A stretch of 64,000 bases of DNA from Saprospiraceae bacterium (lineage in GTDB: Bacteria > Bacteroidota > Bacteroidia > Chitinophagales > Saprospiraceae), in assembly GCA_020629965.1 (NCBI GenBank), contig JAHDCG010000001.1, forward strand, positions 84,802-148,801. The letters run 5' to 3'. The position numbers were made by a program, and so were the translations under genes. The stretch's first letter is position 1, and every line of letters starts with the position of its first letter. The notes under the pieces were generated by a model. The model was not told the origin of the DNA. It searched no databases and saw only the letters and a program-made list of their open reading frames with translations. Shown in pieces: positions 1 to 60,148 of the stretch.

Positions 1-41
1 ACGGTTGACGGTTGACGGTTGTTGGTTGACGGTTGACGGGC
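1..41. repeat. Heptamer array (ACGGTTG)n
   Basis: Six consecutive 7-base units: ACGGTTG three times, TTGGTTG, ACGGTTG, then ACGGGCG. The window edge cuts it. The complementary unit CAACCGT differs by one base from the CCGTCCA unit (rotated) at 20833 and 27095, so these arrays look related. Confidence 0.85.
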
Positions 42-97
42 GCGCGTGATTAAGCCTACTGTTTGCTTCACTGACAACTACAATCCTTTGCAAGATA

Positions 98-136
98 TAA
101 AAAAGCGGTATTGATTCAGTTCAATACCGCTTTTTT
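98..136. terminator. Bidirectional intrinsic terminator
   Basis: The stem AAGCGGTATTGA / TCAATACCGCTT has a 5-base loop, with an A-run before and a T-run after, so it can terminate from both sides. On the minus strand it ends transcription of the protease gene at 182-1438. Confidence 0.85.
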
Positions 137-137
137 A

Positions 138-183
138 CTCTCAGCTCTCTACTTTTCGCTCGCCACTCTTGGCTCTCCCCTCT
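138..183. repeat. Heptamer array (CTCTNNN)n at the 3' end of the protease gene
   Basis: The stretch divides into 7-base units that nearly all begin with CT: CTCTCAG, CTCTCTA, CTTTTCG, CTCGCCA, CTCTTGG, CTCTCCC, CTCTAAA. It touches the stop codon of the minus-strand gene at 182. A similar CTCTNNN array lies at 57417-57451. Confidence 0.7.
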
Positions 184-1438
184 AAATCAACTCCCGCAAC
201 CGAAAAGTCCTTTTCATCTTCACGTTCCTTCTTCTCAACACCAACTTTATCTTCTTTCCTTCTTTTTTTTTCAGTTTTTTCAAAATTGCCGTCAGCGAAG
301 TAAATGCCGTGCCGATGCCGTTGATTTTTACTATGCGGTCACCGCGAAAAATGCCCGCTTCCGCCGCCGGACTGCCGGGCACGACCTTCGAGACGTAAAT
401 TTGATTCAAACTTGCGCCGCCGGCTATCAATATCAGACCGCTTTTGTCATATTCAAATTCTTCTTTATAATATTTATTCGGACGCACAAAAAATTGACTG
501 CGCGGGTAGTCGATAACCACGTCGAACCGCCGCAGAGCAGGATTACCGATGATGCCGTTGCGACCGTTGAGGCGCGTGGTGTCGAGGTCGATGATTAGTT
601 CCTGAAAACTCGTCGTGACTTCGTTGAGTTTGAAACCCGTCTCGTGCAACGGCAGTTTATCCACCCGCCCGGTCACGCCTTCGAGGGAGCCGCCCAGCCC
701 GGAGGCGACTGCTCCGGTGACCACATTTTCGGGTACATCGAGGTCGGGGTGCGTGTCGGTGTAAAGAATGAGCGGCAGATTAGAGCCGGTGTCTATGAGC
801 AGTTTAACCTCGGCATTTGTCGTGTCGGAGAGCAGCACGTCGGTTTCGAAGTAAGGTTTATTTTTATAGATTTCTACGGGAATTTCCCGAAATCTTTTAC
901 CGGGAGTTTTATTGCTCGACGGTGAAATTGTCAACCTGCGATTGCGGTAATCTATTTCTACGCGATAGCCGCGAAACACATCCGCACCGATAATGCCCTG
1001 CACGTTCAGACCCGCCATTTCATCGAATCTGAAATAATCTTCCTCCAAAACGAGCAGCGATTGATTAGGGATATTTATCGCTCCGATTTTCAGATGCACC
1101 TCCCGTACTAAGTAAACAAACAACTCGCGCCGCATATCCGAGCCGATGATTTGCAATCTGCGCTCGAAGGGGATTTTCATAATTTCCGCGACTTCCCGCT
1201 TCATCAGTACGGTGTGTTCGGCGCCGGTGTCGTAGATAAAATTGAGCGGCAGGGTGCGGTTGAAAAGGACGGGGATAACGATGAAATTATTGTGAATTTC
1301 AAAGGGAATATCGACCGGCTTAGTGATGCCGTACACGGTTTGCGCTTGTGATTTATTAAAAAAAAGAAAAAGCAAAGCGAGCGATAAAAAGAGAATTTTA
1401 CCGTCCCGATTAAAATATTTGCAAAATGAGAAACGCAA
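182..1438 (-). CDS. Secreted retropepsin-like aspartyl protease with C-terminal PDZ domain
   Basis: A 418-residue protein with a hydrophobic signal segment (about residues 14-32, ending SQAQ), so export to the periplasm or envelope is expected. Two aspartyl-protease half sites are visible: DTGAEHTVL at 70-78 and DTGSN at 216-220. This matches clan AA single-chain enzymes with two lobes. A PDZ domain occupies about 333-405 (VVPGSPAAEAGIFRGDRI), typical for substrate or C-terminus recognition. This architecture is common in Bacteroidota and its substrates are unknown. The gene is single, faces away from the susCD locus, and is followed by a heptamer array and a strong terminator. Activity is inferred from the two intact DTG motifs. 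The physiological role is not known. Confidence 0.85.
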   Translation of the reverse strand: MRFSFCKYFNRDGKILFLSLALLFLFFNKSQAQTVYGITKPVDIPFEIHNNFIVIPVLFNRTLPLNFIYDTGAEHTVLMKREVAEIMKIPFERRLQIIGSDMRRELFVYLVREVHLKIGAINIPNQSLLVLEEDYFRFDEMAGLNVQGIIGADVFRGYRVEIDYRNRRLTISPSSNKTPGKRFREIPVEIYKNKPYFETDVLLSDTTNAEVKLLIDTGSNLPLILYTDTHPDLDVPENVVTGAVASGLGGSLEGVTGRVDKLPLHETGFKLNEVTTSFQELIIDLDTTRLNGRNGIIGNPALRRFDVVIDYPRSQFFVRPNKYYKEEFEYDKSGLILIAGGASLNQIYVSKVVPGSPAAEAGIFRGDRIVKINGIGTAFTSLTAILKKLKKKEGKKIKLVLRRRNVKMKRTFRLRELI

Positions 1439-2055
1439 GATAATTTTGTTTTTTGACCTTTTTTCCCGGCAAGTTAATGTTTAAAAAATAAAAACCGTAA
1501 AAATCTTTCATTTCGTCCGCAAAACATTTTCTTCCCAAAAACTTAACAAAAAGCTAATGTGTCAGGCAGCGGAAATAATAAAGGTGTCGTTACATCTAAA
1601 AATTCGTTCAGCAAAAGTTTTCGACATATCGAAAACTTTCAAAAAATAAAAAGTAATTAAATAAATTTGGTAGTCTAAAACTTATTTCAGACTTTTACCG
1701 GCGTTAGTGTTGTTTTTACACCTTGTTCATTTATCTGACCTTACATACCGGCTCTGTTTACCGGTTAAAAAACTGCCCTTCCGGCAATATAACAAACAAA
1801 TTTACCGATTCATCTGAAAAACACCGCATAAAAATTTTAACGTACAGTTTTTCAACCCTTTACCGACTTTCAATTTCTGTCACACCTTATTCCTTTTATC
1901 TACACCGTTCCCGTCCCGTATGCACACTCTAAGACAATTTTTTCTCCCTGCGAGAGAAGAGAGGGTAAAGAAAATTACCCGTTTGGCTTTATACTTTGTT
2001 GCCTTAAAGAAGCTGAATTATTTACATTATTTTGTTAACTAAACCATAGTGTTGT
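1439..2055. other. 617-base AT-rich divergent intergenic region
   Basis: It separates the minus-strand protease from susC, so it must hold both promoters. No exact TAnnTTTG box with a properly spaced TTTG was found. The nearest candidate, TATACTTTG around 1990-1998, has one base too many. A 69-codon open frame at 1723-1932 has no protein-like features. Nothing else was recognised. Confidence 0.5.
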
Positions 2056-5000
2056 ATGAAACTTAAAATTGACTATGTTTTTAAGAATGCGTTACTGCTC
2101 CTGCTTTGCTTGAGCATGACGAGCCTTGCCGTCGCCCAAAGTACCGTCACCGGTACGCTGACGGATGCCGAATCCGGCGAGGCACTTATCGGAGCGAATG
2201 TACTCGTCGTGGGTACTTCTTCCGGTACCATCACCGACTTTGACGGAACTTACTCTGTTTCCGTTCCGGAAGGTGCCACACAATTGGAGTACTCTTACAC
2301 GGGTTTCCAAACGCAAACCGTCGATATCGCGGGTCGCGGTACGATTGACATTGCGATGTCATCGGGTACGGTACTCGACGAGGTCGTCGTTGTCGGTTAC
2401 GGTACGACTACCCGCGAAGAGGTGACCAGCTCCGTAACTTCCGTTAAGGCGGAAGATTTCAACGGCGGTCAGGTCAATGACCCGACACAGTTGATACAAG
2501 GTAAGGTTGCCGGCTTGTCTATCTCCGATGCGGGCAGTGACCCCAACGGCGGTACGACTATCCGTCTGCGCGGTATCAATTCTTTGGGCAGTACCTCTCC
2601 GCTCATCGTTATCGACGGGGTTATCGGTGCTACCTTAGAGACTGTCGATCCTAACGATATTGCGTCTATCGACGTATTGAAAGACGGTTCTGCCGCAGCT
2701 ATCTACGGCGCACGCGCCTCTGCGGGTGTCATCATTGTTACTACCAAAAAAGGAACGTCGGGTAAAACTTCCGTTACTTACAACGGTTTGGCGACCGTTG
2801 AAAATGTTGGTCGTACTTTGCCTTTGGCTTCTGCCGAAGAGTATGTACGCTTGCGCGGTGAAGATCAAAACCTCGGCGGCGATACCGATTGGATTGACGA
2901 AGTAACCGAGTCTGCGCTTTCTTTCACTCACAACTTAGCCATGTCGGGCGGTATCAACAAGACCTCTTACCGTGCGTCTTTAAACTACCGCGACATCGAG
3001 GGTGTCGGTATCAACAGCGGCTTTAATCAACTGAACGGTCGTTTGAATCTGAACCAAAAAGCACTCGACGATCGCTTGTCTATCAATTTGAACGTATCTG
3101 CTACCGAGCGTCAGTCAGAGTTCGGTTTTACGGAGTCTTTCCGCTACGCCAACATCTACAATCCTACGGCACCTATTTTCTTCGAAGATCAAATGTCTGC
3201 CGAAGCACTTCAGTTCGGCGGCTACTTTCAGTCTCCTAACTTCGATTACTTCAACCCCGTAGCGATTGCGGAGCAAGGTATCAACGAAGGTACACAAAAA
3301 GACCTTTTGTTGTCTATCGGCGGTCAGTACGAGTTAATCGACGGCTTGACGGCAGGTGTTTCTTACGCAGTAAACCGTGAGAGTAACATCTTCGGTGAGT
3401 TCTATCCGAACAACGCTTACTTCCGCGGCACCGACCAAAACGGTGAAGCACGCCGGTTTACGGAAGACAAAAACAACGAACTCTTCGAGCTTACCGGTAA
3501 CTACAAAAAGAGATTCGGTAACGTAAACTTCAACGGTTTGGTAGGTTATTCTTACAATGAAATTACCAGCGAGAGCTTCGGTGCTAACGGTCGTGATTTC
3601 ATCGCCAACGGTGTTACTTTCAACAACTTAGGTCTGGGTTCACGGGCGAATGAAGGAGACGGCGATGCTATTTTCTCTAATCAAGAAGAATACAAGGTGA
3701 TCGGCTTTTTCGGTCGTACTAACTTTGCTATCGACGATACCTACTTTTTGACTGCGGCAGTACGCTACGAAGGTTCGACCCGTTTCGGTCCGGAAAACCA
3801 ATACGGTCTTTTCCCCTCTGTGAGTGCGGGTGTTAACTTGAGCAACCTTATCGACATTGCCGGTATAGATAATCTGAAACTGCGTGCGGGCTACGGCGAA
3901 ACGGGTTCTTTGCCTCCTTTCTCTTACCTGTCACAACAACAGTATAACCGTCAGGGAGCTTCTTACCCTATCGGTGGTGTGAGTGTACCGGCTATCGGTA
4001 TTACGCAGGATGCCAATCCTGACTTGAAATGGGAAACTAAGGGTGAGTTTAACGTAGGTGTGGATTTTGCTTTCGGTGACTATGCCTGGACCGGTTCGGT
4101 AGATTACTACAATCGGACTACGCGCGATTTGATTTACCCGGTTTTGGCTACCGTGCCGCCTTTTGTTAATCCTAACATCTGGGCAAACCTCGAAGATGTA
4201 AACTTGGTATCTAACGGTATCGATGTGGCACTGGGTTATAATATGAGCAACGGTGACGGTTTCTCTTGGAATCCGAACGTCGTATTCTCTACTTATAACA
4301 CCGAGCTGCAATTGACCGGTGATCAAGGTACGCAGTTCAACTTCTTCAGTAGCGAAGACGCAACCTTCTTCCCCAACGGTTCTTCTCCCGGTGCTCCGGG
4401 TCTGAACGACAACCCGACCGTTCGTATTCAGGGCGATGCCGAAATCGGTCAGATTTGGGGTCCTGTCTTTGCAGGTATCGACGACAACGGCGAGTATATT
4501 TTTGAAGACTTGGACGGAGACGGTACGGTGGAAGCAGGCAACTTTGCCGAAGACGATAATCAAGTATTGGGTAACGGTTTGCCTGATTTCTCTTTGGGTA
4601 TCAACAATACTTTTAAATTCGGTAACTTAGATTTGACTTTCTTCCTGCGCGGTGACTTCGGTCATGAGTTGATTAACACTTACCGTTTGTTCTACGAAAA
4701 CAACGCTCCGTCACGCAAAATCGATAATATTGTACAAACCGAGTTTTTCGATGAGAACCTTACTGCTAATCCGAAATTCAGCAGCCGTTACGTTGAAACT
4801 GCCTCATTCCTGGCTTTGGATAACGTTACTGTCGGTTATAACTTCGACCTTGCCGACGGCAGCAGTTTTAACAACTTGCGTGTATTCGTAGCAGGTCGTA
4901 ACCTGTTCTTCCTGACGGACTATACGGGCGTCGATCCTTCCGTTCGCTACGCAGATGAAGGTGCTTTGGATAACGGCGGTCGTCGTGATTTTTCTTTCGA

Positions 5001-5082: not shown

Positions 5083-5139
5083 GCTGTTTTTTTTGCAAGA
5101 CAAAGAACATTAGCTTAATTTGATTTTCAGATTTGTGTC

Positions 5140-5187
5140 ATAATGTTGCGATATGAACTTTTGAATACATAAATTCCGCAACATTAT
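5140..5187 (+). promoter_or_regulatory. Hairpin 1 in the susC-susD intergenic region
   Basis: A perfect 11-base inverted repeat, ATAATGTTGCG / CGCAACATTAT, with a 26-base spacer, starts 57 bases after the susC stop. No T-run follows, so it looks like an mRNA-stabilising or processing structure rather than a terminator. Confidence 0.55.
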
Positions 5188-5260
5188 CGGTGAAACGGAA
5201 TTACCTTTGGGATACCGACCGTTAAATGACTCAATTCTAAATTGCAACCAAAAAATTGTG

Positions 5261-5292
5261 CCTCCGATATTGTTTTCGAATAATATCGGAGG
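5261..5292 (+). promoter_or_regulatory. Hairpin 2 just upstream of susD
   Basis: A perfect 11-base stem, CCTCCGATATT / AATATCGGAGG, with a 10-base loop, ends 18 bases before the susD start codon. With hairpin 1 it may set the ratio of SusC to SusD or modulate susD translation. The stem is seen directly; the role is inferred. Confidence 0.6.
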
Positions 5293-5310
5293 GACTAAAA
5301 TTTAATAAAT

Positions 5311-6900: not shown

Positions 6901-6924
6901 GTTCGGTTTTTTACACGCATAAAT

Positions 6925-6969
6925 AAAAAAGGCGGTGCTTTCCCTGCGAGGAAAGTGCCGCCTTTTTTT
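6925..6969 (+). terminator. Intrinsic terminator after susD
   Basis: A 13-bp stem (GGCGGTGCTTTCC / GGAAAGTGCCGCC, two wobble pairs) with a CTGCG loop is preceded by A6 and followed by T7. Confidence 0.9.
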
Positions 6970-20832: not shown

Positions 20833-20861
20833 CCGTCCACCGTAAAACCGTCCACCGTCCA
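20833..20861. repeat. Heptamer array (CCGTCCA)n
   Basis: CCGTCCA, CCGTAAAA, CCGTCCA, CCGTCCA, starting 17 bases after the glycosidase stop codon. All 29 bases are identical to 27102-27130, about 6 kb away. Confidence 0.9.
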
Positions 20862-24059: not shown

Positions 24060-24072
24060 ATTTTGTGAGACG

Positions 24073-24093
24073 TTAGATTTTAGATTTTAGACT
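24073..24093. repeat. Heptamer array (TTAGATT)3 at the end of the GNAT gene
   Basis: TTAGATT, TTAGATT, TTAGACT. The first unit contains the stop codon of the minus-strand GNAT gene, so the last coding codons are made of repeat. 22 bases (24075-24096) are the exact reverse complement of 50908-50929. Confidence 0.9.
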
Positions 24094-24715: not shown

Positions 24716-27025
24716 ATGAAAATCATCGTCCCGCTGCTGTTCGTTTTACTTTTTCTGCTGCCGAAAAAAGTGTCGGAGGCTTGTGTTTCTTTTGATAATT
24801 CGCTTTATACTTATTCTTTTTTGGATTCCAAAATCGTTGCCGAAGACTCGGAATACGCGCCTTATTTTTTGAATTTTTCGGAAATGTATGACTATTACCA
24901 AGAAGTGCAAGAAGCGAAAAAAACGGAAAATCTAGAGGAATGGAGACTGAAAACTTGTGATTATGCGGACTTAACGGAAATCGAAGCGGTCATTTATCAA
25001 GGTTCGGAAACGGAATTGTTGCGCTTAAAAAATGCGGTGAAAGCAAAAAATCCGGTGCCGGGCGGGCGACTGCGTGATAACGGTTTTGCGAAATATTTAA
25101 TGAGCAACGGCTGCGAAGAAACGCTCGATTATCTCGTTTTTGCGAAGCAAACCGAACCGCACGTCACCGCCGTAAATGCCTGGGGCGACACCAAACGCGA
25201 CTATGCGGCGATGAAAGATTTGCAACAGGAAGGAAGAAAACGTTTTCGCAAAACGGGTTCGCATTTTTTGAAATTGCGCTATGCTTACCAACTGATGCGC
25301 TTGGCGCACTACCGCAAGGATTACATCGGCGTTTTGGCATTGCACGAAGATTTGATGCCGAAAATTGACGAGGTTTTGGTCGATGAATTGCGCAGCCTGA
25401 TGTATTGGTGGATTTTGGGGCACAAGGCGGGCGCGCTGATGGCTCTGAATCAAAAAGCGGAAGCCAATTATTTGTATTCACGCATTTTTGCAAAATGTCC
25501 GAGTAAACGGGAAAGTGCGTTTCGGAGTTTTTCCGTAAAAAATCGGGAAGAGTGGGAAGCCGTTTTGAAGCTCTGTCGCAGTGACCGAGAACGCTCGGTT
25601 ATCTATGCGCTGCGTGCGAATGCGGCGGACAGCCGGGCGATTTACGACATGGAAGTCATTTACGATTTGTACCCCGAAAGTCCGCATTTGGAAGTGCTGC
25701 TGGTCAAAGAAATCGAAGAACTGGAGCAGGATTTATTGGGTTTGGATTGGAATAAAAAGAAAAAGCAAAACAAGCGCAACTACAAAATACCGCGCGCCGA
25801 GGCGGGAGATTATGTGATTGAACTACAGAAATTTGCCCGCCGGCTGCGCTTGGAAGGCAAAGTCGCGCGGCCGTCGCTGTGGTACATTGCCGAAGGCTAT
25901 TTAGAGTTTTTAGCGGGCGATTTATACGCCGCCGCCAAGACTTTTGACGAGGTGCGCCCGACGGTTGAAGAAATAGATTTACAACTGCAACTGGCGTCTT
26001 TTGAATTGGCTTTAAAAATTGCGGCCTTTGAAACACCCGACGATGAGACGGAAAGAGCCGCTTACGAAATTATAAAAAGTAACGATTTATACGAGACAAA
26101 TAAGAGTTTTCCGAACTACCTGCGCGACCGCCTGACGCTTTTGTATCAGGAAAACAAACGCCCCGGTAAAGCCTTTCGTACGCAGTACGATTTGAAAGAT
26201 TTGCGCGCCAATCCGCAGGAAGACATCATCGACGACCTGCTGAAAATCGCCCAAAAGCCCGACCGCAATCCTTTGGAACGCCTCTACATTCGCACCAAAG
26301 ACGACGACCTCATCACCGACGACCTGTGGGACATGAAAGCGGTGCTGGCGATGCAGGAATTTCAGTTAGAGGCAGCACTTTTGGCTTTGAAAAAAATACC
26401 GCGCACGGAGTGGGATAAATTCGGGCGGTTCGATGCTTTTCGCCCGACCATAAACGACTGCCAAAGTTGTGCGCACAGCAAAGACAGTATCGACCTTTTT
26501 AATCGCGGTACGCTGATACAGGAAATTTTGGATTTGGAATATCAAGCCCGTGCCGAAATTCAAAAAGCACCGATATCTTATTTTAAAATCGGAGTCGCGT
26601 TGTACAACACGACTTACTTCGGGCACTCGTGGCGGGCGCGGGATTACTACCGCAGCGGTGCCGTTTGGTATCAATTAAAACGCGCAAAAGATAACGTTTT
26701 CCCCGTCGCGCGTAAAGGTTTTCCGTTCGGCAATAAAGAACTAATCGACGTAGCGCGGGCAAAATATTACTTCGAAAAATGCCGAATCCTGACCGAAAAT
26801 CCGGAACTCGCCGCCCAAGCCACCTACATGGCAGCCAAATGCGAACTCATCGAATATTACCAAAGCGAAATGTATAAACCGGCAAAATGCGCAAACTGCA
26901 TTCCCGAGGTACCGGAGGAATATACCGAAGAATATCAACGCCTGAAGGAGCAATACGGAGAGACAAAATTTTACGCAAGAATAATTGAAGAATGTGCTTT
27001 TTTTGCGGCTTACGCCCGAAGGTAG
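24716..27025 (+). CDS. Large secreted helical-repeat protein of unknown function
   Basis: A 769-residue protein with a signal peptide (IIVPLLFVLLFLLPKKVSEA). The mature N-terminus begins ACVSFD. The body is rich in paired helices with TPR-like spacing (YAYQLMRLAHYRKDYIGVL, AGALMALNQKAEANYLYSRI), suggesting a TPR/HEAT-type solenoid, though no canonical TPR consensus is complete. Cysteine pairs appear late (CQSC near 583, CANC near 724). I recognise this as a type seen as hypothetical protein in Bacteroidota but cannot name a function. The coding end merges into a heptamer array. Confidence 0.75.
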   Translation: MKIIVPLLFVLLFLLPKKVSEACVSFDNSLYTYSFLDSKIVAEDSEYAPYFLNFSEMYDYYQEVQEAKKTENLEEWRLKTCDYADLTEIEAVIYQGSETELLRLKNAVKAKNPVPGGRLRDNGFAKYLMSNGCEETLDYLVFAKQTEPHVTAVNAWGDTKRDYAAMKDLQQEGRKRFRKTGSHFLKLRYAYQLMRLAHYRKDYIGVLALHEDLMPKIDEVLVDELRSLMYWWILGHKAGALMALNQKAEANYLYSRIFAKCPSKRESAFRSFSVKNREEWEAVLKLCRSDRERSVIYALRANAADSRAIYDMEVIYDLYPESPHLEVLLVKEIEELEQDLLGLDWNKKKKQNKRNYKIPRAEAGDYVIELQKFARRLRLEGKVARPSLWYIAEGYLEFLAGDLYAAAKTFDEVRPTVEEIDLQLQLASFELALKIAAFETPDDETERAAYEIIKSNDLYETNKSFPNYLRDRLTLLYQENKRPGKAFRTQYDLKDLRANPQEDIIDDLLKIAQKPDRNPLERLYIRTKDDDLITDDLWDMKAVLAMQEFQLEAALLALKKIPRTEWDKFGRFDAFRPTINDCQSCAHSKDSIDLFNRGTLIQEILDLEYQARAEIQKAPISYFKIGVALYNTTYFGHSWRARDYYRSGAVWYQLKRAKDNVFPVARKGFPFGNKELIDVARAKYYFEKCRILTENPELAAQATYMAAKCELIEYYQSEMYKPAKCANCIPEVPEEYTEEYQRLKEQYGETKFYARIIEECAFFAAYARR

Positions 27026-27058
27026 TTGAGAGTGAAGAGTAGCGAGTGAAGAATAGCG
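27024..27058. repeat. Heptamer array (AGTGAAG-type) after the 24716 gene
   Basis: Five 7-base units, AGTTGAG, AGTGAAG, AGTAGCG, AGTGAAG, AATAGCG, begin inside the stop codon of the gene. Confidence 0.8.
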
Positions 27059-27086: not shown

Positions 27087-27178
27087 AGCACAGCCCGTCC
27101 ACCGTCCACCGTAAAACCGTCCACCGTCCACCGTTTCAGCACAGCCCGTCCACCGTCCACCGTAAAACCGTCCACCGT
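27087..27178. repeat. Two 41-base copies of a CCGTCCA heptamer block
   Basis: 27087-27127 and 27138-27178 are identical over 41 bases (offset 51). Each contains the order CCGTCCA, CCGTCCA, CCGTAAAA, CCGTCCA. It ends two bases before the stop codon of the minus-strand aldehyde dehydrogenase. Confidence 0.95.
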
Positions 27179-27179
27179 A

Positions 27180-28634: not shown

Positions 28635-28710
28635 AGAAAGTAGTGTAGGAGCAAGAAGTCAAATACCTTGAAACTTCCGCCTGTGGTTAATCGTACCGTA
28701 TCGCAAAAGT

Positions 28711-28781
28711 TAGTTTAAGTTTTTAGTTGTTTAGCTGTGAGGCTTGTTCTAAACGCCTAAACCTACTAAACTCTTAAACAA
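28711..28781. repeat. Inverted octamer array (NNGTTTAG)
   Basis: Left arm TAGTTTAA, GTTTTTAG, TTGTTTAG (from 28711). Right arm CTAAACGC, CTAAACCT, CTAAACTC, TTAAACAA (28749-28781). 28766-28781 is the exact reverse complement of 58456-58471 (16 bases). It lies upstream of the aldehyde dehydrogenase. Confidence 0.85.
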
Positions 28782-28904
28782 GAAAAATTCAAAAGAATTT
28801 TTCTTATACGGTTATTCGTTTTATGTTCCAAAAATATGTAATACTTTGAGAAGCGGGCATTTTAAAGGAAAGAATAATAATTTTTTATTTTTTTTCTTGA
28901 AAAG

Positions 28905-29102: not shown

Positions 29103-29151
29103 AGATTACAGGATTTTTTTAAGACAGGATTTGAGGATTTTTTGGATTTTT
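29103..29151. repeat. Single-arm (ACAGGATTT)-type repeat
   Basis: GGATTT occurs four times at irregular spacing. The unit matches that of the nonamer hairpin at 39077-39143, but only one arm is present. Confidence 0.55.
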
Positions 29152-29228
29152 TCCGATGTTCCGGAGAGACGCGTTTTCCCGCGTCTTTACAAAAGCCTTC
29201 TACTGAATTTTATCGTATTTGTGCAGTA

Positions 29229-29370: not shown

Positions 29371-29536
29371 TTAAGTAGGTGACGGTATTTATTTCGGTAA
29401 ATTTAAGGACAAGATTTTTTCGTATATTTTCTTTAAAAAATCAGTGCATAGCCGTAGCTACGGACTTATTTTTTGGAGGAAATAGGCGGAAAAAGATGTT
29501 TTTAAATTACCGAAATAAATGTTGTCACCTACTTAA
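29371..29536. repeat. Long hairpin element, copy 1 (166 bp)
   Basis: The outer arms TTAAGTAGGTGAC and TTTATTTCGGTAA are repeated in inverted orientation at the other end. The complementarity continues imperfectly to a central palindrome CCGTAGCTACGG. On the minus strand the core reads CCGTAGCTACGGCTATGCA, shared with copy 2 at 44937-45104. No open reading frame. Confidence 0.85.
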
Positions 29537-34175: not shown

Positions 34176-34203
34176 CGAATTACGATGTACGAATTACGAT
34201 GTA
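34176..34203. repeat. Heptamer array (CGAATTA/CGATGTA)
   Basis: CGAATTA, CGATGTA, CGAATTA, CGATGTA, in the leader region of the HYR gene. 34183-34206 is identical to 51419-51442 (24 bases). Confidence 0.9.
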
Positions 34204-34206
34204 CGA

Positions 34207-34693: not shown

Positions 34694-35884
34694 ATGACTG
34701 ATACTCAAATCGAAAACCTGCAAGTCTCTAAAATACAAGCTACCGAAGCACATGTGCAGCATCTTTTGGAACAAAAAATTCCGAAAGAAATGGCAAAGAT
34801 GAAGGAGAAAAGCACCCGCAAAATGCTCAAAGCGGCGCAGCGTTTGGCGGACGAAGTCGAGCTGCCTGCGGATGACCGCTATATTTTGGAACTCGCCGTG
34901 GTCTTTACCAATGCAGGCTACTCAGAGTCTTTGCACAATCCTTACTTTCACAGCAGCAAAGTGGCAAAAGCATACATGAGTGCCGAAAAGTTTGCGGAAA
35001 AAACCATCGAGCGCGTTAGTCAGTGCCTGAACACCAATCTGCCGGAAGCCAAGCCGCGCGACCTCACCGAGGAGGTTTATCAGGATGTGCGGGCGAGTCT
35101 GTACGCCGATAAAAAATATGTCAAAAAGACGCTGCCGAAAATACAGGCGGAAGAACAAATCGAGGCGCGTAATCCGATTAAGTCCGCCGAATGGCTGCGC
35201 GAACACCGGGCGGAATTGAAAGAAATTGAATTTAACACCGAGCCGGCGCAGGAATTGTACGAGAAGCGGTTGAAAAAGAATTTGAAAAAAATCAAGAAAC
35301 TGCGTAAGAAAAAAGAGAAGGGCATTTCTAAATACGAAGCGCCGATTGACAAAAGCAAAAGTGCGCAGGTCATCCTGAAAACCGCGCTGCGCAACCACAT
35401 CGACCTCACCAATATTGCCGACGGCAAGTCGAATATCATGCTGAGTATCAATGCGATAATTATCACGATTGCCGCACCGTTGCTAACGCGCTACATTGCC
35501 GACAACGGTTATTTGATTATTCCGATGACGGTTTTGATTATTACTTGCGTGACTTCGATTATCTTTGCCGCCCTCGCGACCCGACCGATTAAAATGGACG
35601 GCGAAACGAACATCGATAAGGTGATGGACAGACCGGGCAGCAACCTTTTCTTTTTCGGTAATTTTTTCAACGTGCCGCTGCTCGACTATCAGCGCGGTAT
35701 GAAACAGGTTTTGCGTGATACGGAAGTGTTGGAGCGCAGCATTATCAACGATTTGTACTTTCTCGGTCTGGCTTTGGGGAAAAAATTTAACCTGTTGCGC
35801 GTCTGCTATTTAGTGTTTATGGTGGGTATTGCCTGCTCGGTTTTGGCTTACGCCTTGACGCTTTATTTTACGGAGTTGAATTGA
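34694..35884 (+). CDS. Degenerate HD domain fused to Pycsar-effector-type (DUF5706) membrane domain
   Basis: A 396-residue protein. The N-terminal half has the helical pattern of an HD phosphohydrolase, but the usual FHDTGY reads FTNAGY near residue 73 and the first metal His region reads MKEKSTRKMLKA, so the His-Asp dyad is absent. A Lys-rich linker (LKKIKKLRKKKEKG) follows. The C-terminal part (about 229-396) is recognisable as the Pycsar effector family: TALRNHIDLTNIADGKSNIM, two membrane helices, NLFFFGNFFNVPLLDY, DLYFLGLALGKKFNLLRV and a last membrane helix. In Pycsar systems such effectors respond to cCMP or cUMP and disrupt the membrane. Here no cyclase is adjacent. A housekeeping or nucleotide-sensing role is equally possible. 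The gene is single and closed by its own terminator. Confidence 0.75.
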   Translation: MTDTQIENLQVSKIQATEAHVQHLLEQKIPKEMAKMKEKSTRKMLKAAQRLADEVELPADDRYILELAVVFTNAGYSESLHNPYFHSSKVAKAYMSAEKFAEKTIERVSQCLNTNLPEAKPRDLTEEVYQDVRASLYADKKYVKKTLPKIQAEEQIEARNPIKSAEWLREHRAELKEIEFNTEPAQELYEKRLKKNLKKIKKLRKKKEKGISKYEAPIDKSKSAQVILKTALRNHIDLTNIADGKSNIMLSINAIIITIAAPLLTRYIADNGYLIIPMTVLIITCVTSIIFAALATRPIKMDGETNIDKVMDRPGSNLFFFGNFFNVPLLDYQRGMKQVLRDTEVLERSIINDLYFLGLALGKKFNLLRVCYLVFMVGIACSVLAYALTLYFTELN

Positions 35885-37650: not shown

Positions 37651-37784
37651 CCCGGCATTATCATACCATGAGCGGCGAACCGGATTGGGAGATGCCATGC
37701 CGTTGGTATTAAAATGTGTAGCTCGGCACTTTCTCCCACCCGGCACTTACGTGCCGGGCTGAAGTGTTTCGTGCCGTTGGCACT
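37651..37784. repeat. REP-like repeat, two tandem copies
   Basis: Copy A (37651-37710) and the second half of copy B (37751-37784) each end in a GCCGTTGG motif. Copy B contains GCCGGGCTGAAGTGTTTCGT, which matches the reverse complement of 49187-49247 at 28 of 30 bases. Copy A matches that element over about 60 bases with roughly a dozen differences. GC-rich, hairpin-forming, no open frame. Confidence 0.85.
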
Positions 37785-37810
37785 TGTTGTAGTGCGCTAA
37801 CCACTCTGAC

Positions 37811-39076: not shown

Positions 39077-39143
39077 GACAGGATTAACGGGATTATTAGG
39101 ATTTGCCGATTTGGCTTATCCTGAAAACCCCGTTAATCCTGTC
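39077..39143. repeat. Inverted nonamer array (GGATT)
   Basis: GACAGGATT, AACGGGATT, ATTAGGATT, TGCCGATTT is followed by the inverted series ending CCCGTTAATCCTGTC. The outer 15 bases pair perfectly. It sits between two convergent genes and may also stop transcription from both sides. Confidence 0.9.
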
Positions 39144-43837: not shown

Positions 43838-43938
43838 TTGTTGAATGGTTGAGGTGTTGAATCGTTGAAAAATTCGCGGAACGGCACAACTGCTACGAGG
43901 TGCGCGCTCAACGATTCAACGATTCAACATTTCAACAG
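43838..43938. repeat. Inverted octamer array, four units per arm (NNGTTGAA)
   Basis: Left arm TTGTTGAA, TGGTTGAG, GTGTTGAA, TCGTTGAA (43838-43869). Right arm CTCAACGA, TTCAACGA, TTCAACAT, TTCAACAG (43907-43938). Each arm is exactly 32 bases. It fills the gap between two convergent genes, ending 4 bases from the second stop codon. Confidence 0.95.
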
Positions 43939-44936: not shown

Positions 44937-45104
44937 TTAAGTAAAAGAAACCAAATAACTTGAGCCGTTATGCTCATTCTTTTTCCTTCTAAAAAACACA
45001 AAAAATAGTTCCGTAGCTACGGCTATGCAACGATTTTTTGAATTCTTTAGAAGAAAAAATTAAAGAGCATTCAGGCTTAACTTATTTAATTTCTTTTACT
45101 AAAC
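44937..45104. repeat. Long hairpin element, copy 2 (168 bp)
   Basis: The arms share AGTAAAAGAAA, AAATAA, ATGCTC and CTTCTAAA blocks in inverted order around the core CCGTAGCTACGGCTATGCA. The arm sequences differ from copy 1 at 29371-29536, although core and total length are the same. Confidence 0.85.
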
Positions 45105-48592: not shown

Positions 48593-49138
48593 TTAAAACT
48601 TAATTTCAATAAAAATATCATTTCCGGTCAGTAAACGTATATCCTGCTTGCTTTTGATGCTGTAACCCGTCTGCGGATTGTAGGTTAAAAAACTTTTCGT
48701 ATCAGAGACAGCACTCTTGCCGCCGGTTTCAATTTCTACTTTACTGACGTTTTTTCCGGAAAAATTCACACGCAGCCGGCGCGTTTTCAAACCTTCTTCA
48801 ACGGCGGTGTAGGTCAACGCGACAATTTCCCGATTGCTATCGAAAGTCGTGTCGATTTCATACTTATCCAACCAAGCCGTGCGATTGATGTCCGCATCGG
48901 CAAAAACCGATAATTCCTCCTGTAAATCGAGATTATCGAGCGTCTTAGTTTCGCTTTCACCGTTATATACGACAGTTTTGGTAAATCCGGTTTTCGCTTG
49001 CAGTCGATTTTGTTCTGCGGCGATGTAATTCTTCAAATCAAAGAACGGTTTGTCTTCTACCAATTTTCCTTCTTCCGGCGTTTCGATGCACGCAGAAAAA
49101 GAAAAAATCAGCAAGGACAGTAAGAGAACAAAACGCAT
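48593..49138 (-). CDS. Lipoprotein of unknown function
   Basis: A 181-residue protein with a lipoprotein signal (FSAC, Cys17). The mature part is probably beta-rich in its second half (REIVALTYTAVEEGLKTRRLRVN, KVEIETGGKSAVSDTKSFLTY, GYSIKSKQDIRLL). This is reminiscent of short outer-membrane lipoproteins seen next to unrelated genes in Bacteroidota. No domain is recognised. It stands alone on the minus strand, preceded by a REP-like element. Confidence 0.75.
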   Translation of the reverse strand: MRFVLLLSLLIFSFSACIETPEEGKLVEDKPFFDLKNYIAAEQNRLQAKTGFTKTVVYNGESETKTLDNLDLQEELSVFADADINRTAWLDKYEIDTTFDSNREIVALTYTAVEEGLKTRRLRVNFSGKNVSKVEIETGGKSAVSDTKSFLTYNPQTGYSIKSKQDIRLLTGNDIFIEIKF

Positions 49139-49186
49139 ATTTTAATTTTTAGAAAAAAACAACAATCAGGAGAAACCACTACCAAT

Positions 49187-49247
49187 AAATGCCAACGGCA
49201 TGAAGCACTTCAGCCCGGCTTGCCACTCATGGTATGTAAATGCCGGG
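49187..49247. repeat. REP-like repeat, inverted single copy
   Basis: A 61-base element containing GCCAACGGCATGAAGCACTT; its reverse complement matches the copies at 37651-37784. It lies just downstream of gpmI. Confidence 0.85.
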
Positions 49248-49262
49248 ATAATTTCGCAAAGC

Positions 49263-50837: not shown

Positions 50838-50930
50838 AACGCAAAGACACGGAGACGCAGAGAATTTTCTTCTTAATAATAAAACGAATGCCACCCCTGA
50901 GACGCATAGCAGTCTAAAATCTAAAATCTC
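50838..50930. repeat. Mixed heptamer arrays between the lipoprotein gene and gpmI
   Basis: The first part (ACGCAAA, GACACGG, AGACGCA, GAGAATT, about 50838-50868) has 7-base units. The second part (50908-50929) is the exact reverse complement of 24075-24096. The array ends one base before the stop codon of the lipoprotein gene. Confidence 0.75.
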
Positions 50931-50931: not shown

Positions 50932-51390
50932 CTATTCCGTAGCCTGCATCAAGCTGTCGATAAAACTCTCCATTTCCTCCGCCCCCTCTTCCGTTACCTC
51001 CTCCGGCACATCGACGGCCCACTGTCCGTTTATTTTTTGCAAAACAAATGTATCCCGAATGAGTTCGCCCTCTTCGCGGATGACGCAGGCGCAGGCGGCA
51101 GTGTTGCCGGTTTCGGTGCAGTTCATTTCGGCAAAATCGGTGCGGTAAATTTCGGCGGTTTCTTCGGGCGGCAGCCCTTCCAAAAATTTTTCAATCATCA
51201 GCAGCCATTCGCGGGCGCGGGGCGTGGAAAGTTCGGCGGCTTCGACAAATTTATCGGTATCGACGTATTCCTGCCATTGGCGGGTGACGGTTTCGGGCGT
51301 GTTCGGCAGGGCGGCGGCGGTTTTATTTTCCGTTTCGGAAGCACAACCGACGATGCCGAGGAGGATTAAAAAACAGAGTAAATTTTTCAT
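50932..51390 (-). CDS. Lipoprotein, DUF4878/NTF2-like
   Basis: A 152-residue protein with a lipobox (GIVGC, Cys16). The mature domain (PETVTRQWQEYVDTDKFVEA, LSTPRAREWLLMIEKFL, NTAACACVIREEGELIRDTF, INGQWAVDV) follows the helix-plus-four-strand pattern of small NTF2-like domains such as DUF4878. The domain assignment is tentative. Function unknown; membrane-anchored by its lipid. A heptamer array lies directly at its 3' end and another at its 5' side. Confidence 0.75.
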   Translation of the reverse strand: MKNLLCFLILLGIVGCASETENKTAAALPNTPETVTRQWQEYVDTDKFVEAAELSTPRAREWLLMIEKFLEGLPPEETAEIYRTDFAEMNCTETGNTAACACVIREEGELIRDTFVLQKINGQWAVDVPEEVTEEGAEEMESFIDSLMQATE

Positions 51391-51411: not shown

Positions 51412-51508
51412 CGATGTACGATGTACGAATTACGATGTACGAATCGGGAATTATTGAGCGCAGCAAAATCCCGACTCCGGTCGCGGACGATGTACGATGT
51501 ACGAGAGG
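51412..51508. repeat. Heptamer array (CGATGTA/CGAATTA), two blocks
   Basis: CGATGTA, CGATGTA, CGAATTA, CGATGTA, CGAATCG from 51412, and CGATGTA, CGATGTA, CGAGAGG from 51488. A CGGGA/TCCCG stem lies between. 24 bases are identical to 34183-34206. Confidence 0.9.
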
Positions 51509-54187: not shown

Positions 54188-54222
54188 AAGTTTGGTTTGC
54201 TTTTGTTGTTTAGAATAGATTC

Positions 54223-54390
54223 GCGGATTTAGCGGATGAGGCGGATTTGTGCGGATTTTTTCTTTTCAATTTGTATTAAAACTCAAAAGAACGAAGACAA
54301 TTTTGATGTAAATAATCAATAACAAAGCAAATATTAAAAAACAAAAAAATCCGCCCCGATCCGCTAAATCCGCCTCATCCGCGTATCCGT
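54223..54390. repeat. Inverted nonamer array (GCGGAT)
   Basis: GCGGAT occurs at 54223, 54232, 54241 and 54251. The inverted ATCCGC series (last copy ATCCGT) starts at 54349, 54359, 54368, 54377 and 54385, a near-regular 8-10-base period. The spacer is about 90 bases and AT-rich. It lies between the M14 and amidohydrolase genes, which have the same orientation. Confidence 0.9.
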
Positions 54391-54399
54391 CAACCTCCC

Positions 54400-57375: not shown

Positions 57376-57416
57376 AAAAGTCGTTGAAAAATTGATAAAA
57401 ACCGAAGGTTACAGAC

Positions 57417-57451
57417 CTCTCTCCTCTCCCCTTTTTCCTCTCTCCTTTTCT
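57417..57451. repeat. Heptamer array (CTCTNNN)
   Basis: CTCTCTC, CTCTCCC, CTTTTTC, CTCTCTC, CTTTTCT: five exact 7-base steps between two divergent genes. The same unit type occurs at 138-183. Confidence 0.8.
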
Positions 57452-57479
57452 AAAAACGGAAATATACTCATTTTTGCGA

Positions 57480-58391
57480 ATGCTTTTAACACAAAACAGT
57501 CCTTTACAGGAAATTCCTTTAGCGGGCGGACAAATTCGGCTGCTTATTAAGCGCGACGACCTGCTGCACCCTTTCGTTTCGGGTAATAAAATGCGCAAGA
57601 TGAAATATAATTTGCGCGAGATGCGGCGACGCGGGCAAAGTAAAATTTTGACGTTCGGCGGGGCATTTTCCAACCACATCGCCGCCGTTGCCGCTGCGGG
57701 TCGAGCGGAAAATTTTGCGACCGTCGGCATCATTCGCGGGGAGAGACCGGCGGGGCTAAATCCGACTTTGCGCTTTGCGGAGGAATGCGGGATGCAGTTG
57801 CGGTATATTTCGCGCAGCGCATATCGACGTAAAGAAGAGTCGGATTTTTTGGAAAGTTTGCAAAAAGAACACGGTGACTTTTATTTGCTGCCCGAAGGCG
57901 GCACGAATTGCTTCGCTTTGCAAGGTTGCGCGGAAATTATCGAGGAGATAAAAGCGGAAATCATTCCCGATTACTACTGCGTCTGCTGCGGTACGGGCGG
58001 CACGATTGCGGGGATGATACAAGGCGCGGAAGGCAAAAGTGAAATTTTGGGTTTTTCTGCGCTGAAAGGCGATTTTTTAGAAAAAGAAGTAGAAAAACTA
58101 CTGCAAAACTGCGGCAAAAAAAGCTACACTAATTGGTCGATTAATTCCGATTTTCATTGCGGCGGCTACGCCGAATTTACGCCGGAGCTGATTGATTTTA
58201 TCAATAAATTTAAAGCGGAATACGGCATTGCGCTCGACCCGATTTACACGGGAAAAATGTTTTTCGGTATTTTTTCGCTGTTAGAGAAAGGGTATTTTGA
58301 GAAAGGCAGCACGGTCGTTGCGGTACACACGGGCGGCTTGCAGGGCGTGGCGGGATTTAATGAGAGATTTGGGAATATTATCGAGGTTTGA
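57480..58391 (+). CDS. PLP-dependent D-cysteine desulfhydrase / ACC deaminase family
   Basis: A 303-residue fold-type II PLP enzyme. The likely PLP Lys is Lys37 in PFVSGNKMRKM, followed by LTFGGAFSNHIAAVAAAG (substrate and cofactor loop) and CCGTGGTIAGMI (phosphate-binding loop). This is the 1-aminocyclopropane-1-carboxylate deaminase/D-cysteine desulfhydrase family. Reactions of the family are deamination or desulfhydration of D-cysteine or related amino acids. The ATG at 57480 is preferred to the TTG at 57474. Cytoplasmic; it stands alone between two minus-strand genes. Confidence 0.88.
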   Translation: MLLTQNSPLQEIPLAGGQIRLLIKRDDLLHPFVSGNKMRKMKYNLREMRRRGQSKILTFGGAFSNHIAAVAAAGRAENFATVGIIRGERPAGLNPTLRFAEECGMQLRYISRSAYRRKEESDFLESLQKEHGDFYLLPEGGTNCFALQGCAEIIEEIKAEIIPDYYCVCCGTGGTIAGMIQGAEGKSEILGFSALKGDFLEKEVEKLLQNCGKKSYTNWSINSDFHCGGYAEFTPELIDFINKFKAEYGIALDPIYTGKMFFGIFSLLEKGYFEKGSTVVAVHTGGLQGVAGFNERFGNIIEV

Positions 58392-58455
58392 AAAAAACGG
58401 GAGATTTTATTGACCGGCATTTTGTATCGCTGCGCATCAAAAGTTTACCTCATTT

Positions 58456-58533
58456 TTGTTTAAGAGTTTAGGCGTTTAACCGTTTAGTTGCAGCGAGCGT
58501 CCTAAACAACTAAACGACTAAACCCTTAAACAA
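58456..58533. repeat. Inverted octamer array, four units per arm (NNGTTTAR)
   Basis: Left arm TTGTTTAA, GAGTTTAG, GCGTTTAA, CCGTTTAG (58456-58487). Right arm CTAAACAA, CTAAACGA, CTAAACCC, TTAAACAA (58502-58533). Both arms are exactly 32 bases, as in the array at 43838-43938. It sits between two convergent genes, 5 bases from the second stop. Confidence 0.95.
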
Positions 58534-58538
58534 TATTT

Positions 58539-59960
58539 CTACAAGCCGATTTCGCTCGCTACCATCGTAGCGTAGTTTTGAAAAGCGGAGGTCAGCATTT
58601 TTCGGTAAGCATCGTTTTTCACATTTCTGCTGCCGAAACCGCCGCCGATATTAGAAAAACTGTTGTTCGGACGGCTGTACGTGTTCATTTTAAACCGCTC
58701 GTTTCTTTGCGGCAACGTAAAGTTTACGTTCCAATCAATGCCCGTCGCTAAGAGATAACCAATAAATCTGCCTTCCTGATTGCTGTACTGACCGTTGGTT
58801 TCGGTATGCACATAGAGCGTCGGAAATTCGCCCGACTCGTACTTTTCGGCGAGCGTTTCGATTTTGTAATCGACGCTGATCAACGGTCTTTCCTTCATAT
58901 TTTCAGCATCGCCGACGTTGATTAAATTGACGACTTCAAACGTACCGGGCAGAAAAACGGAATCTAAACGCACTTGAAAAGCTTTGACAATTCCCTGCCG
59001 TCCGTAGGCATCGCTTGCCTGAAAACCTTGCTTAATCGACGGCGGTTTCGACTTCGAAGGCAAAGGATATTTATTCTCGCCGGAAGCATTGGAAAACTCA
59101 ATCATCATATCCACCACGCTGCGTTCTTCCTCGGTGTAATCGCTCCAGTCTTTCAGATTGGTTTCCGAATTAAACGCAATATTTACCGTTCTTTCGCCCG
59201 TTTTTTCGGCATAGTCGAGCAGCGCATTCATATACAGACGAGCCGCCTTGCTGACCTCTTTGTCCTTGACGCGGGCGGCGTAACTATCGCGCAGATTAGA
59301 CCACACTTCGGCCTCGGCAGCGGCGACTTCCCCGCTGTATTTTCCCGTCGGAAAATTTTCTTTGTACGCTTCCAAAGAAGCAAAATCTTTGTATTCGGAG
59401 ACATTGTCCCACAGACAATTTTCAAGAGCGGCACTGTTTTCTTCGATAAAATTTTCTTTGAGTTGTGTCTTCGCTTTTTGCAGTTGCAGACAGGAAGAAA
59501 AACCCGTGCTCGCCTTGCTCGACACGCGGCGTTCGACCGCGTGTGTGTACGCGATGCTGTCCGTGACCCGCGTCGCAAAGGCGCGATACTCCCCGTTCGG
59601 GTAGTCGCGCAGGTAGCGATTCGCCATTGTAGTTGTCGGATTAGCCGCCAGCTCTTCGTAGGCCCGCGTCTCTTTGGTCATCAGGTTATAGGTGATAAAA
59701 CCGACAAGCAGCACCGCCAAACCCGCCATTATGCGTTTAACCAACATGGCTTGGTCGTCTTTTTTTCTTTGGGCTTCGGGGTCATATTTTCTTTGCTGCG
59801 TCGTGCGTGTATTGTTTGCCGTAGCGCGGGGTGTGATGACTCGACCGTTGTTAACCTCGATAATCTGCGGACAGCCCGTACAGTTAAAACGAATGTGACG
59901 GTCAGCGGGTACGCGCATTTTCGTGGCACAATTCGGACAGGAGATAATTGATGTGGACAT
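58539..59960 (-). CDS. Zinc-ribbon membrane-anchored protein of unknown function
   Basis: A 473-residue protein. The N-terminal zinc ribbon (C8-x2-C11 and C27-x2-C30: CPNCATK and CTGCPQ) is followed by a basic Q/R-rich linker. A single membrane helix lies at about 77-95 (MAGLAVLLVGFITYNLM), and a large outside domain follows. This part has TPR/tol-pal-like helices at about 105-270 (AYEELAANPTTTMANRYL, then LEAYKENFPTGKYSGEVAAA). The remaining 200 residues are of unrecognised, probably beta-rich structure. The ribbon is cytoplasmic by the positive-inside rule. A sensor or scaffold function is a guess. Confidence 0.7.
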   Translation of the reverse strand: MSTSIISCPNCATKMRVPADRHIRFNCTGCPQIIEVNNGRVITPRATANNTRTTQQRKYDPEAQRKKDDQAMLVKRIMAGLAVLLVGFITYNLMTKETRAYEELAANPTTTMANRYLRDYPNGEYRAFATRVTDSIAYTHAVERRVSSKASTGFSSCLQLQKAKTQLKENFIEENSAALENCLWDNVSEYKDFASLEAYKENFPTGKYSGEVAAAEAEVWSNLRDSYAARVKDKEVSKAARLYMNALLDYAEKTGERTVNIAFNSETNLKDWSDYTEEERSVVDMMIEFSNASGENKYPLPSKSKPPSIKQGFQASDAYGRQGIVKAFQVRLDSVFLPGTFEVVNLINVGDAENMKERPLISVDYKIETLAEKYESGEFPTLYVHTETNGQYSNQEGRFIGYLLATGIDWNVNFTLPQRNERFKMNTYSRPNNSFSNIGGGFGSRNVKNDAYRKMLTSAFQNYATMVASEIGL

Positions 59961-59994
59961 TTGTTTGGTTTTTATTCCGTGAAAAATTTCCTGA

Positions 59995-60002
59995 CAAATG
60001 TA
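59995..60002 (-). promoter_or_regulatory. -7 box of the zinc-ribbon gene (TACATTTG on the minus strand)
   Basis: CAAATGTA is an exact TAnnTTTG match on the minus strand, 34 bases before the start codon. No -33 TTTG at usual spacing. Confidence 0.55.
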
Positions 60003-60120
60003 TAAAATAATCGGAGATTTTTAAATTTTCGGACTTTAAAACAGAAATTAAATAAGAAAGTGCTTTTGTTGAGATAAAATTCCTATCAAACTCGATTCCC
60101 GGATATTAGAATGTACTCAC

Positions 60121-60148
60121 CGACAACGGGCAACCGACAACCGACAAC
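60121..60148. repeat. Heptamer array (CGACAAC)4 at the 3' end of ligA
   Basis: CGACAAC, GGGCAAC, CGACAAC, CGACAAC. The last base is part of the ligA stop codon. Confidence 0.92.

Follow-up and report, generated by a model that had tools for sequence, protein, structure and literature searches.

Tandem core-linker arrays at the gene borders of a Saprospiraceae bacterium and a multi-copy palindrome with such arms in Chitinophaga

Several families of tandem repeats with a unit of 7 nucleotides (nt), the short tandem repeats (STRR), lie in the gaps between the genes of heterocystous cyanobacteria. The same is found in the DNA analysed here, a window of 64,000 nt from a Saprospiraceae bacterium (assembly GCA_020629965.1, contig JAHDCG010000001.1, positions 84,802 to 148,801), whose gaps carry short arrays of units of 7, 8 or 9 nt. 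In Xanthomonas and Nostoc, the heptamers GGGNATC and GGGGA(T/C)T have been explained by G-quadruplexes (Rehm et al. 2015, PMC4692102). The parts of that paper used here describe intergenic 7-nt units, mostly four together in Xanthomonas, and 70 and 75 convergent inverted pairs. These repeats lie at most 50 bp from stop codons on the coding strand or upstream of open reading frames (ORFs) on the other strand, and nearest to the 5' neighbouring ORF on either strand. TAACTGA direct repeats are known from Beggiatoaceae, Cyanobacteria and five Bacteroidetes; most stand immediately before start codons, and they were proposed to be translational signals (MacGregor 2015, PMC4679880). One inverted repeat is reported in the passages used from that paper, which also weigh carriage by mobile elements and summarise Mrazek 2007. 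In Thiomargarita, TAACTGA repeats and miniature inverted-repeat transposable elements (MITEs) are described apart in the part of PMC4853749 used, and there are published MITEs for which no parent element is known (PMC3542288, in part).

With the Xanthomonas and Nostoc repeats, so far as those parts describe them, our arrays have in common the 7-nt unit, the stop-proximal strand rule and the convergent pairs. They differ in that a single G-rich family is found there, whereas here 13 families of 7, 8 and 9 nt occur, almost none of them quadruplex-capable, and in that the arrays start closely around the stop codon. Like the TAACTGA repeats they are arrays of two to six heptamers that touch gene borders, are scattered over phyla and vary between related strains. 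The TAACTGA repeats, however, have one unit, and the PMC4679880 passages contain no palindromic element with such arms, unlike Chitinophaga (see below). A preliminary description of the window had rightly pointed to a changing unit in a constant layout, to the closeness to stop codons and to the cyanobacterial heptamers. Its statement that no equivalent was described in the lineage was too strong, since the TAACTGA heptamers occur in five Bacteroidetes and a like layout was already known from Xanthomonas and Nostoc. Searches of one open-licence library, judged by their listings and by selected passages, showed no description of these families in Saprospiraceae or of a palindrome with heptamer-array arms, and a text search for array words returned only papers that were unrelated by title and abstract start. 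Our preferred reading, to which we give an even chance, is that the arrays are very small mobile dispersed repeats that are copied into gene junctions and rest mainly at stop codons.

Arrays of constant unit length in the gaps

Strong arrays were scanned for as self-matches at fixed lags of 4 to 16, with 30 dinucleotide shuffles and coding DNA as controls. The 33 gaps of the window (10.0 kb) contained two strong arrays at lag 7, one at lag 8, three at lag 14 and none at the other lags, against 0.00 in the shuffles and none in 54 kb of coding DNA. In 412 kb of the genome (93 kb of gaps), a biased sample in which 18 of the 21 extra loci had been picked for one family, 54 arrays were found at lag 7, 9 at lag 8, 3 at lag 9, 25 at lag 14, 6 at lag 15, 4 at lag 16, 1 at lag 4 and none at the rest. 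Here the shuffles gave at most 0.17 per lag and the coding DNA one array. An unselected 104 kb gave 7, 2 and 6 arrays at lags 7, 8 and 14, compared to at most 0.03 in the shuffles.

The genome sample used from here on comprised 1,060,344 bases, 16% of 6.52 Mb, with 15,720 N including five short contigs that were fully masked; contigs bearing the F1 family are over-represented, as loci L003-L020 and L092-L111 were chosen from F1-listing contigs. At a lower threshold, its gaps gave 168, 52 and 20 arrays at lags 7, 8 and 9 and 8, 1, 3 and 1 at lags 10 to 13, and its coding DNA 17 in total, of which 6 had lag 7 or 14. A looser scan (lags 7-9 and 14-18) found 462 arrays. Of these, 34 lay mostly within predicted coding DNA; 31 of the 34 were outside every family, all at lags 9, 15 or 18. 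The 428 gap arrays comprised 351 assigned to 13 families, 74 unclassified ones and 3 that were a different repeat and were set aside. We conclude that gap arrays with periods of 7, 8 and 9 nt and their multiples are clearly real and near-absent from coding DNA and shuffles. The tandem 7-nt intergenic units fall into the 5-11-nt class of the heptamer STRR and long simple sequence repeats.

The arrays recurred throughout the genome and the shuffles remained near zero, so that both outcomes named beforehand as speaking against them, equal density in shuffled gaps and no sharing elsewhere, failed to appear. At 16 of the 19 coordinates given earlier, Tandem Repeats Finder listed an array; near 29103, a short one was found at 29135-29152, and 39077 and 50838 were unlisted. 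The former was recovered as an inverted repeat and the latter was recognised by eye, with a unit of 8 bases where 7 had been given. The sites at 28711, 39077, 43838, 54223 and 58456 are inverted pairs. Among the stretches reported as shared, those of 29 nt (20833/27102), 22 nt inverted (24075/50908) and 16 nt inverted (28766/58456) were borne out, while that of 34183/51419 is 26 nt long and not 24.

The 13 families were defined by hand, with word lists made by eye after part of the data had been seen. Units of 7 nt are found in F2 (TACGA+2), F3 (TTAGA+2), F6 ((A/G)GTTG+2), F1 (ACGG+3/4), F7 (GAGAGG+1) and F13 (GAGTGAA-type), units of 8 nt in F4 (GTTTA+3), F5 (GTTGA+3), F10 and F12, and units of 9 nt in F8 (GTT(T/G)GA+3), F9 (AGGATT+3), F11 and an extra 9-mer family, GCGGATTTA, at 54223. 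The window's families are multi-copy across the genome sample. In F2 to F6, a core of about 5 bases is conserved and a linker of 2-3 bases is variable: walking outward from one exact core, core positions were kept at 0.87-1.00 (the first F6 base at 0.69) and linker positions at 0.45-0.77.

Units were counted as chains of exact cores, with no array detector. Chains of three, four and five units numbered 6, 22 and 4 for F2, 18, 29 and 2 for F3, 13, 45 and 7 for F6, 12, 21 and 1 for F5 and 11, 22 and 1 for F4. Among chains of at least three units, these families peak at four with a sharp fall at five, and one shuffle of 20 loci gave no chain of three or more. When one mismatch per core was allowed, four units led in F2 (21/40), F6 (60/113), F5 (30/49) and F4 (29/64), and F3 had 23 four-unit and 25 five-unit arrays among 65. 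F8, F12 and F1 have no peak at four: F1 chains of at least three peak at five, and F8 and F12 mostly have two units. F1 is the most uniform family, with 23 copies of one near-exact 26-nt core and 49 matches to this 26-mer at up to 3 mismatches in the sample, some of them tandem. The order of the linkers was no better than in within-array shuffles in all six families tested, so most arrays are something other than simple copies of a single master sequence. Only a weak signal, CGGCTTTTGCTT, was found as an inner motif common to the array neighbourhoods.

Growth in place by polymerase slippage favouring 7-9 nt would fit the dominance of period 7, the 7-nt indels between strains in cyanobacterial arrays (a passage of PMC4679880), and the existence of two-unit fragments and of a few long arrays of up to 12 units. 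It does not account for the four-unit peak among arrays of at least three units, for the same unit sequences at tens of loci, for the orientation rule described below or for the presence of one family across phyla. Local slippage alone is therefore very improbable in our view.

Placement, orientation and pairing at gene borders

Genes were called by a home-made procedure in which stops are exact and starts are often placed too far in, so that 5' adjacency is undercounted. Some real genes, among them the GNAT gene at 24073, are absent from the strict set. Because of both, results are reported for three gene sets. We term the G/T-rich strand of an array the G-form and its complement the C-form. 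On the plus strand, the G-form stands at the left edge of a gap and the C-form at the right edge, irrespective of the strand of the gene. This rule was obeyed by 148 of 150 arrays within 20 nt of a border in the first gene set, by 137 of 137 within 15 nt in the strict set, and by 150/155 within 15 nt and 156/164 within 20 nt in the inclusive set. More than 60 nt from a border, no orientation rule was visible. Since the G-forms of F1 and F2 contain no stop codon and these families obey the rule within 20 nt in 19/22 and 13/13 cases (inclusive set), the rule is not an artefact of ORF calling.

The arrays are also close to the borders: 144 of 304 lay at most 10 nt away, compared to 56.6 for random placement within their own gap. 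Most start between -8 and +9 nt around the stop codon, and 44 of 115 overlap it. The stops at arrays are TAG in 41 and TGA in 46 of these 115 cases, both over-used relative to all genes (0.29 and 0.30). In the strict set, 107 of 472 3' ends and 30 of 492 5' ends had an array, the predicted starts being unreliable, so that the start-upstream bias of the TAACTGA type is not seen here; in the inclusive set, 116 of 155 border arrays were at 3' ends.

G-quadruplexes or other non-B DNA, as proposed for the GGGNATC heptamers, would agree with a layout and an orientation that are the same as in the parts of PMC4692102 used. Yet four GGG runs, as needed for a quadruplex, were present in just 2 of 351 arrays, and the rule holds in G-run-free families such as F2, F3 and F4. 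We give this explanation hardly any credence.

When a G-form array was followed by a C-form array in the same gap, both belonged to the same family in 32 of 72 cases against 8.0 expected, chiefly less than 150 nt apart; below 60 nt it was 18 of 31. The first array set gave 24 of 70 against 8.3 expected. Both edges carried arrays in 19 gaps, compared to 10.1 if the edges were independent. Four pairs of the window folded better than shuffles (z -2.3 to -10.4). Two other arrangements were tried and rejected. A gene cassette, with the same family flanking one gene, was found in 6 of 60 pairs (7.2 expected), and coevolving RNA hairpins are not indicated, as the arms of 23 same-family pairs had a mean complementarity rank of only 0.52.

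The one other genome of the same genus that was compared, G001, has a LigA 77% identical to that of the window's genome and the same kinds of arrays at lower density. One of its gaps (L126 5886-6104) has an F2 array at each border. Its gene calls are poor (42% coding), and hence 16 orthologous 3' ends were compared. An array was present in the window's genome only at 6, in both at 1, in G001 only at 1 and in neither at 8, which means poor conservation between species. The DUF5682 gene is followed by an F5 hairpin in the window and, as read by eye, by a 9-mer hairpin about 60 nt past the stop in G001, and at 49114-49262, G001 has a 9-mer hairpin where the window has another repeat. In 19 further genomes of the family and order, few such arrays were seen in single samples of 10.5-20 kb.

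These comparisons bear on whether the arrays are functional gene-border signals, in which evenly spaced cores of any family do one job and selection keeps their position and orientation. The job might be the recruitment of an RNA- or DNA-binding factor, or of Rho on the C/A-rich strand, ending antisense transcription. An orientation rule of 95-100%, a kept core with a varying linker, the preference for 3' ends and the different hairpins at the DUF5682 gene end of two species all speak for such signals. Against them, most orthologous 3' ends share no array, 5' ends are also occupied in mirror orientation, and inverted pairs are not kept complementary. We regard border signals as somewhat unlikely, though far from negligible.

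A TACGAAT-armed palindrome and the origin of the arrays

In Chitinophaga solisilvae O9 (genome G030, locus L216), an F2 pair forms a near-perfect palindrome of 145 nt (fold z -22). At least 40 full-length copies, including the query, are 89-97% identical, and one more is 77% identical; as 40 of 620 first-look candidates were scored, more copies may exist. The 20 best were fetched and 21 copies read. They have sharp ends, and 15 of the 21 lie at most 10 nt from a predicted stop. The left-hand stop of five copies reaches 1-2 nt into the palindrome. Four copies (L322-L325) fill a convergent gap, leaving at most 10 nt at either stop, and a fifth (L330) leaves 13 nt on one side. The palindrome ends in AATT on both sides, and no constant flanking duplication was seen by eye in the 21 copies.

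Chitinophaga eiseniae lacks the palindrome at two of three comparable orthologous junctions. There the alignable flanks are 23 and 20 nt apart, compared to 162 and 184 nt in C. solisilvae. At the second junction, the two ORFs of C. eiseniae converge with an overlap of 12 nt, whereas in C. solisilvae one stop ends 2 nt short of the palindrome and the other 1 nt within it. A fourth locus gave no match for comparison. With many similar copies, sharp ends and empty sites, this F2 palindrome is MITE-like. These results show that the TACGAAT-armed palindrome has spread to many copies in Chitinophaga and that two of its sites are empty in a related species.

Palindromes of this kind recall the repetitive extragenic palindromic (REP) sequences and their paired form, the REPINs, which are moved by a Y1 tyrosine transposase (RAYT). 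Like these and the MITEs (PMC3733652, PMC4853749 and PMC3542288, in the parts used), our elements are short, non-autonomous and inverted, with many copies mostly in gaps; unlike them, their arms are short tandem arrays and no RAYT or other mobilising enzyme was identified. A REP/REPIN family would explain that the elements are small, intergenic, multi-copy and palindromic when paired, and that single copies and pairs coexist. However, C. solisilvae has no Y1_Tnp match despite at least 40 similar copies, and around the single match in the window's genome (30.6 bits against a cut-off of 23) no array was seen by eye in the surrounding 2 kb. REPs are also unlike the array arms. It is thus highly unlikely that the arrays are such a family.

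If the arrays are mobile, the unit that moves would be an array of a 5-base core and a 2-3-base linker, most often in four copies (28-36 nt). It would move singly or in the form of a hairpin, with two inverted arrays flanking a short spacer. Arrays would come to abut genes because the junctions entered were short or absent, and new stop codons would be located at, or created by, the edge of the inserted array. The arrays would then turn over quickly. The families of the window may spread in the same way as the Chitinophaga palindrome, and single arrays may spread alone.

Several observations weigh against mobile repeats. Two-unit chains of exact cores are frequent (F2 4, F3 10, F6 46, F5 15, F4 31), equalling the four-unit class in F6 and exceeding it in F4, and with one mismatch per core 25 (F6) and 21 (F4) two-unit fragments remain. 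A partner of the same family is lacking for most border arrays, and 12 of the 16 two-edge gaps listed (up to 400 nt) have different families at their edges. Cryptic partners were scarcely above control (36 vs 23 of 289), the F1 core is essentially single with an inverted partner in 1 of 23 cases, and the complementarity between the arms of same-family pairs does not exceed that of arrays drawn at random from the family. Insertion alone leaves the orientation of single arrays unexplained. No mobilising enzyme was found, the C. solisilvae genome having no Y1 transposase match, and at the third junction the place of the palindrome is taken in C. eiseniae by a terminator-like hairpin, so that replacement also occurs. 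The comparison with G001 gave no empty site with exact borders in the window's lineage, and the Xanthomonas and Nostoc heptamers are 'generally' without mobile elements, according to a passage of PMC4692102. From the excess of same-family pairs together with the unmatched gene sides, the differing edge families and the single F1, the array is the basic unit and the inverted pair a second form.

Among the three origins put forward in the preliminary description, the mobile short repeat fits best, given the direct evidence in Chitinophaga and the differences between same-genus species. Slippage products leave the recurrence of words at tens of loci and the preferred unit number unexplained. The arrays might still act as a 3'-end signal, but orthologous 3' ends seldom share them (1 of the 8 ends with an array at most 120 nt away in at least one species).

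The TACGA family in other phyla and further repeats of the window

The motif TACGAWK, three times and followed by TACGA, was found in at least 115 stretches, compared to about 0.007 chance matches calculated for 257 Gb at equal base composition. We analysed 80 of these loci and grouped the phyla from record titles; many records are metagenome-assembled genomes (MAGs), in which contamination is possible. By title, the carriers are Cyanobacteria, Bacteroidota, Deltaproteobacteria, Ignavibacteriales, Chloroflexi, Acidobacteria, Verrucomicrobia, Desulfosporosinus, candidate phyla and Vibrio. Other gap arrays in the 80 loci mostly have period 7 (55 at lag 7, 12 at lag 8, 4 at lag 9). Neighbouring arrays were G-then-C in 19 cases, C-then-G in 2, G-then-G in 19 (L227 and L248 accounting for 15) and C-then-C in 7. 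With the strict gene set, the border rule was obeyed in 37/44 cases in Bacteroidota (including two G001 loci), 10/11 in other phyla and 3/4 in Akkermansia. It failed in Cyanobacteria, with 4/14 for F2, in which the TACGAAT family differs from ours, and 4/8 for other arrays; the orientation of non-F2 arrays in other-phylum loci was taken from G-C skew. Cruder gene calls gave 29/52 for F2 and, in another count, 20/29.

Two observations concern these loci. The cyanobacterial TACGAAT arrays at gene ends (within L190-L269) tend to the opposite orientation, 10 of 14 breaking the rule. In Algoriphagus terrigena and an Akkermansia MAG (L248 and L227), numerous TACGA arrays with a common orientation stand in tandem-like tracts, which is a different arrangement.

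The heptamer STRRs, the TAACTGA repeats, the G-quadruplex heptamers and the present arrays might form one cross-phylum class of gene-end-seeking micro-elements. These would be core-linker arrays preferring four units. An undescribed machinery that reads the periodicity of the core and not a fixed sequence would move them, singly or as inverted dimers, and the gene border would set their orientation. We consider such a class unlikely, and more so than before, because two-unit fragments are common.

The arrays of the window are listed in Table 1. Other dispersed repeats are also present. An Rfam match to Acido-Lenti-1 RNA (RF01687, 52 bits; 37739-37800 and 49183-49219) is a copy of a dispersed repeat of about 48 nt found at 17 places in the 1.06-Mb sample and at 2 in the 0.41-Mb G001 sample, which makes its status as a small RNA questionable here. 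The 166-nt element at 29371-29536 has 36-nt inverted ends, a 100% identical copy at L018 12875 and 9 places in all in the sample of the window's genome, and is a recent MITE-like insertion. The repeat at 44937-45101, 165 nt long, was hit at 8 places in the sample of the window's genome and at 14 in that of G001, with identities of 72-88% among the matches seen. Between 7058 and 18671, three large genes spaced at about 4.1-4.3 kb share many diverged direct repeats, DxDxDG-like by eye, and apparently form a tandem family. A Pycsar effector protein (PycTM) domain was matched at 34694-35884 (E 9.6e-23), possibly an anti-phage gene. Matches to SusD/TonB and Por secretion domains led us to drop an acidobacterial origin of the DNA, which the Acido-Lenti-1 match had suggested.

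Table 1. Repeat arrays located in the 64-kb window
Array	Position	Strand	Context
F6, ACGGTTG (7 nt), G-form	1..39	+	one base past stop of left gene
F13 (7/14 nt), C-form on plus strand	136..183	-	overlaps stop of gene at 182
F1, CCGTCCA/CCGTAAAA, C-form	20833..20861	-	16 nt past stop; rare exception to orientation rule
F3, TTAGATT (7 nt)	24065..24091	+	spans 13-nt gap; 5 nt from cinA start; stop of GNAT gene inside array
F13, GAGTGAAGAGTAGC	27024..27058	+	at stop codon
Two F1 arrays, 51-bp tandem duplication	27095..27179	-	end at stop of aldehyde dehydrogenase gene; fold z -0.1
F4 (8 nt), inverted pair	28708..28794	.	aldehyde dehydrogenase gene to tRNA-Val; z -2.3, 6/200 shuffles equal
F2, TACGAAT/TACGATG	34176..34206	+	26 nt in common with 51417
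F9 (9 nt, AGGATT core), inverted pair	39077..39143	.	convergent genes either side; fold z -10.4
F5 (8 nt, GTTGA core), inverted pair	43839..43937	.	stop to stop across convergent gap; z -6.4
F10 (8 nt, ACGCAAAG)	50838..50863	+	by eye; also unlisted by lag scan
F3, C-form	50908..50929	-	2 nt before stop of gene at 50932
Two F2 arrays, G-form (51412-51444, 51487-51504)	51412..51504	+	
9-mer family GCGGATTTA, inverted arms (54223-54258, 54349-54382)	54223..54382	.	related stretches in genomes G001 and G018
F7, CCTCTCTCCTCTCC	57416..57449	-	not seen in orthologous G001 gap
F4 (8 nt), inverted pair	58458..58531	.	7 nt from stop; fold z -5.4
F6, GTTGTCG	60119..60148	-	abuts ligA stop codon

The gap repeats of many environmental bacteria have so far been explained piecemeal, by slippage, quadruplexes or translation signals. 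The arrays of this Saprospiraceae genome are a many-family variant of a known but scattered kind of repeat. Their layout is independent of G runs, and among arrays of at least three units, four units are the commonest in several families with 7- or 8-nt units. Mobility is directly supported in one genus of the same phylum, Chitinophaga, where arrays of this kind form the arms of an insertion that is present in many copies, sits at stop codons and remakes gene ends. The nature of the heptamer repeats can now be tested in a named strain, Chitinophaga solisilvae O9.

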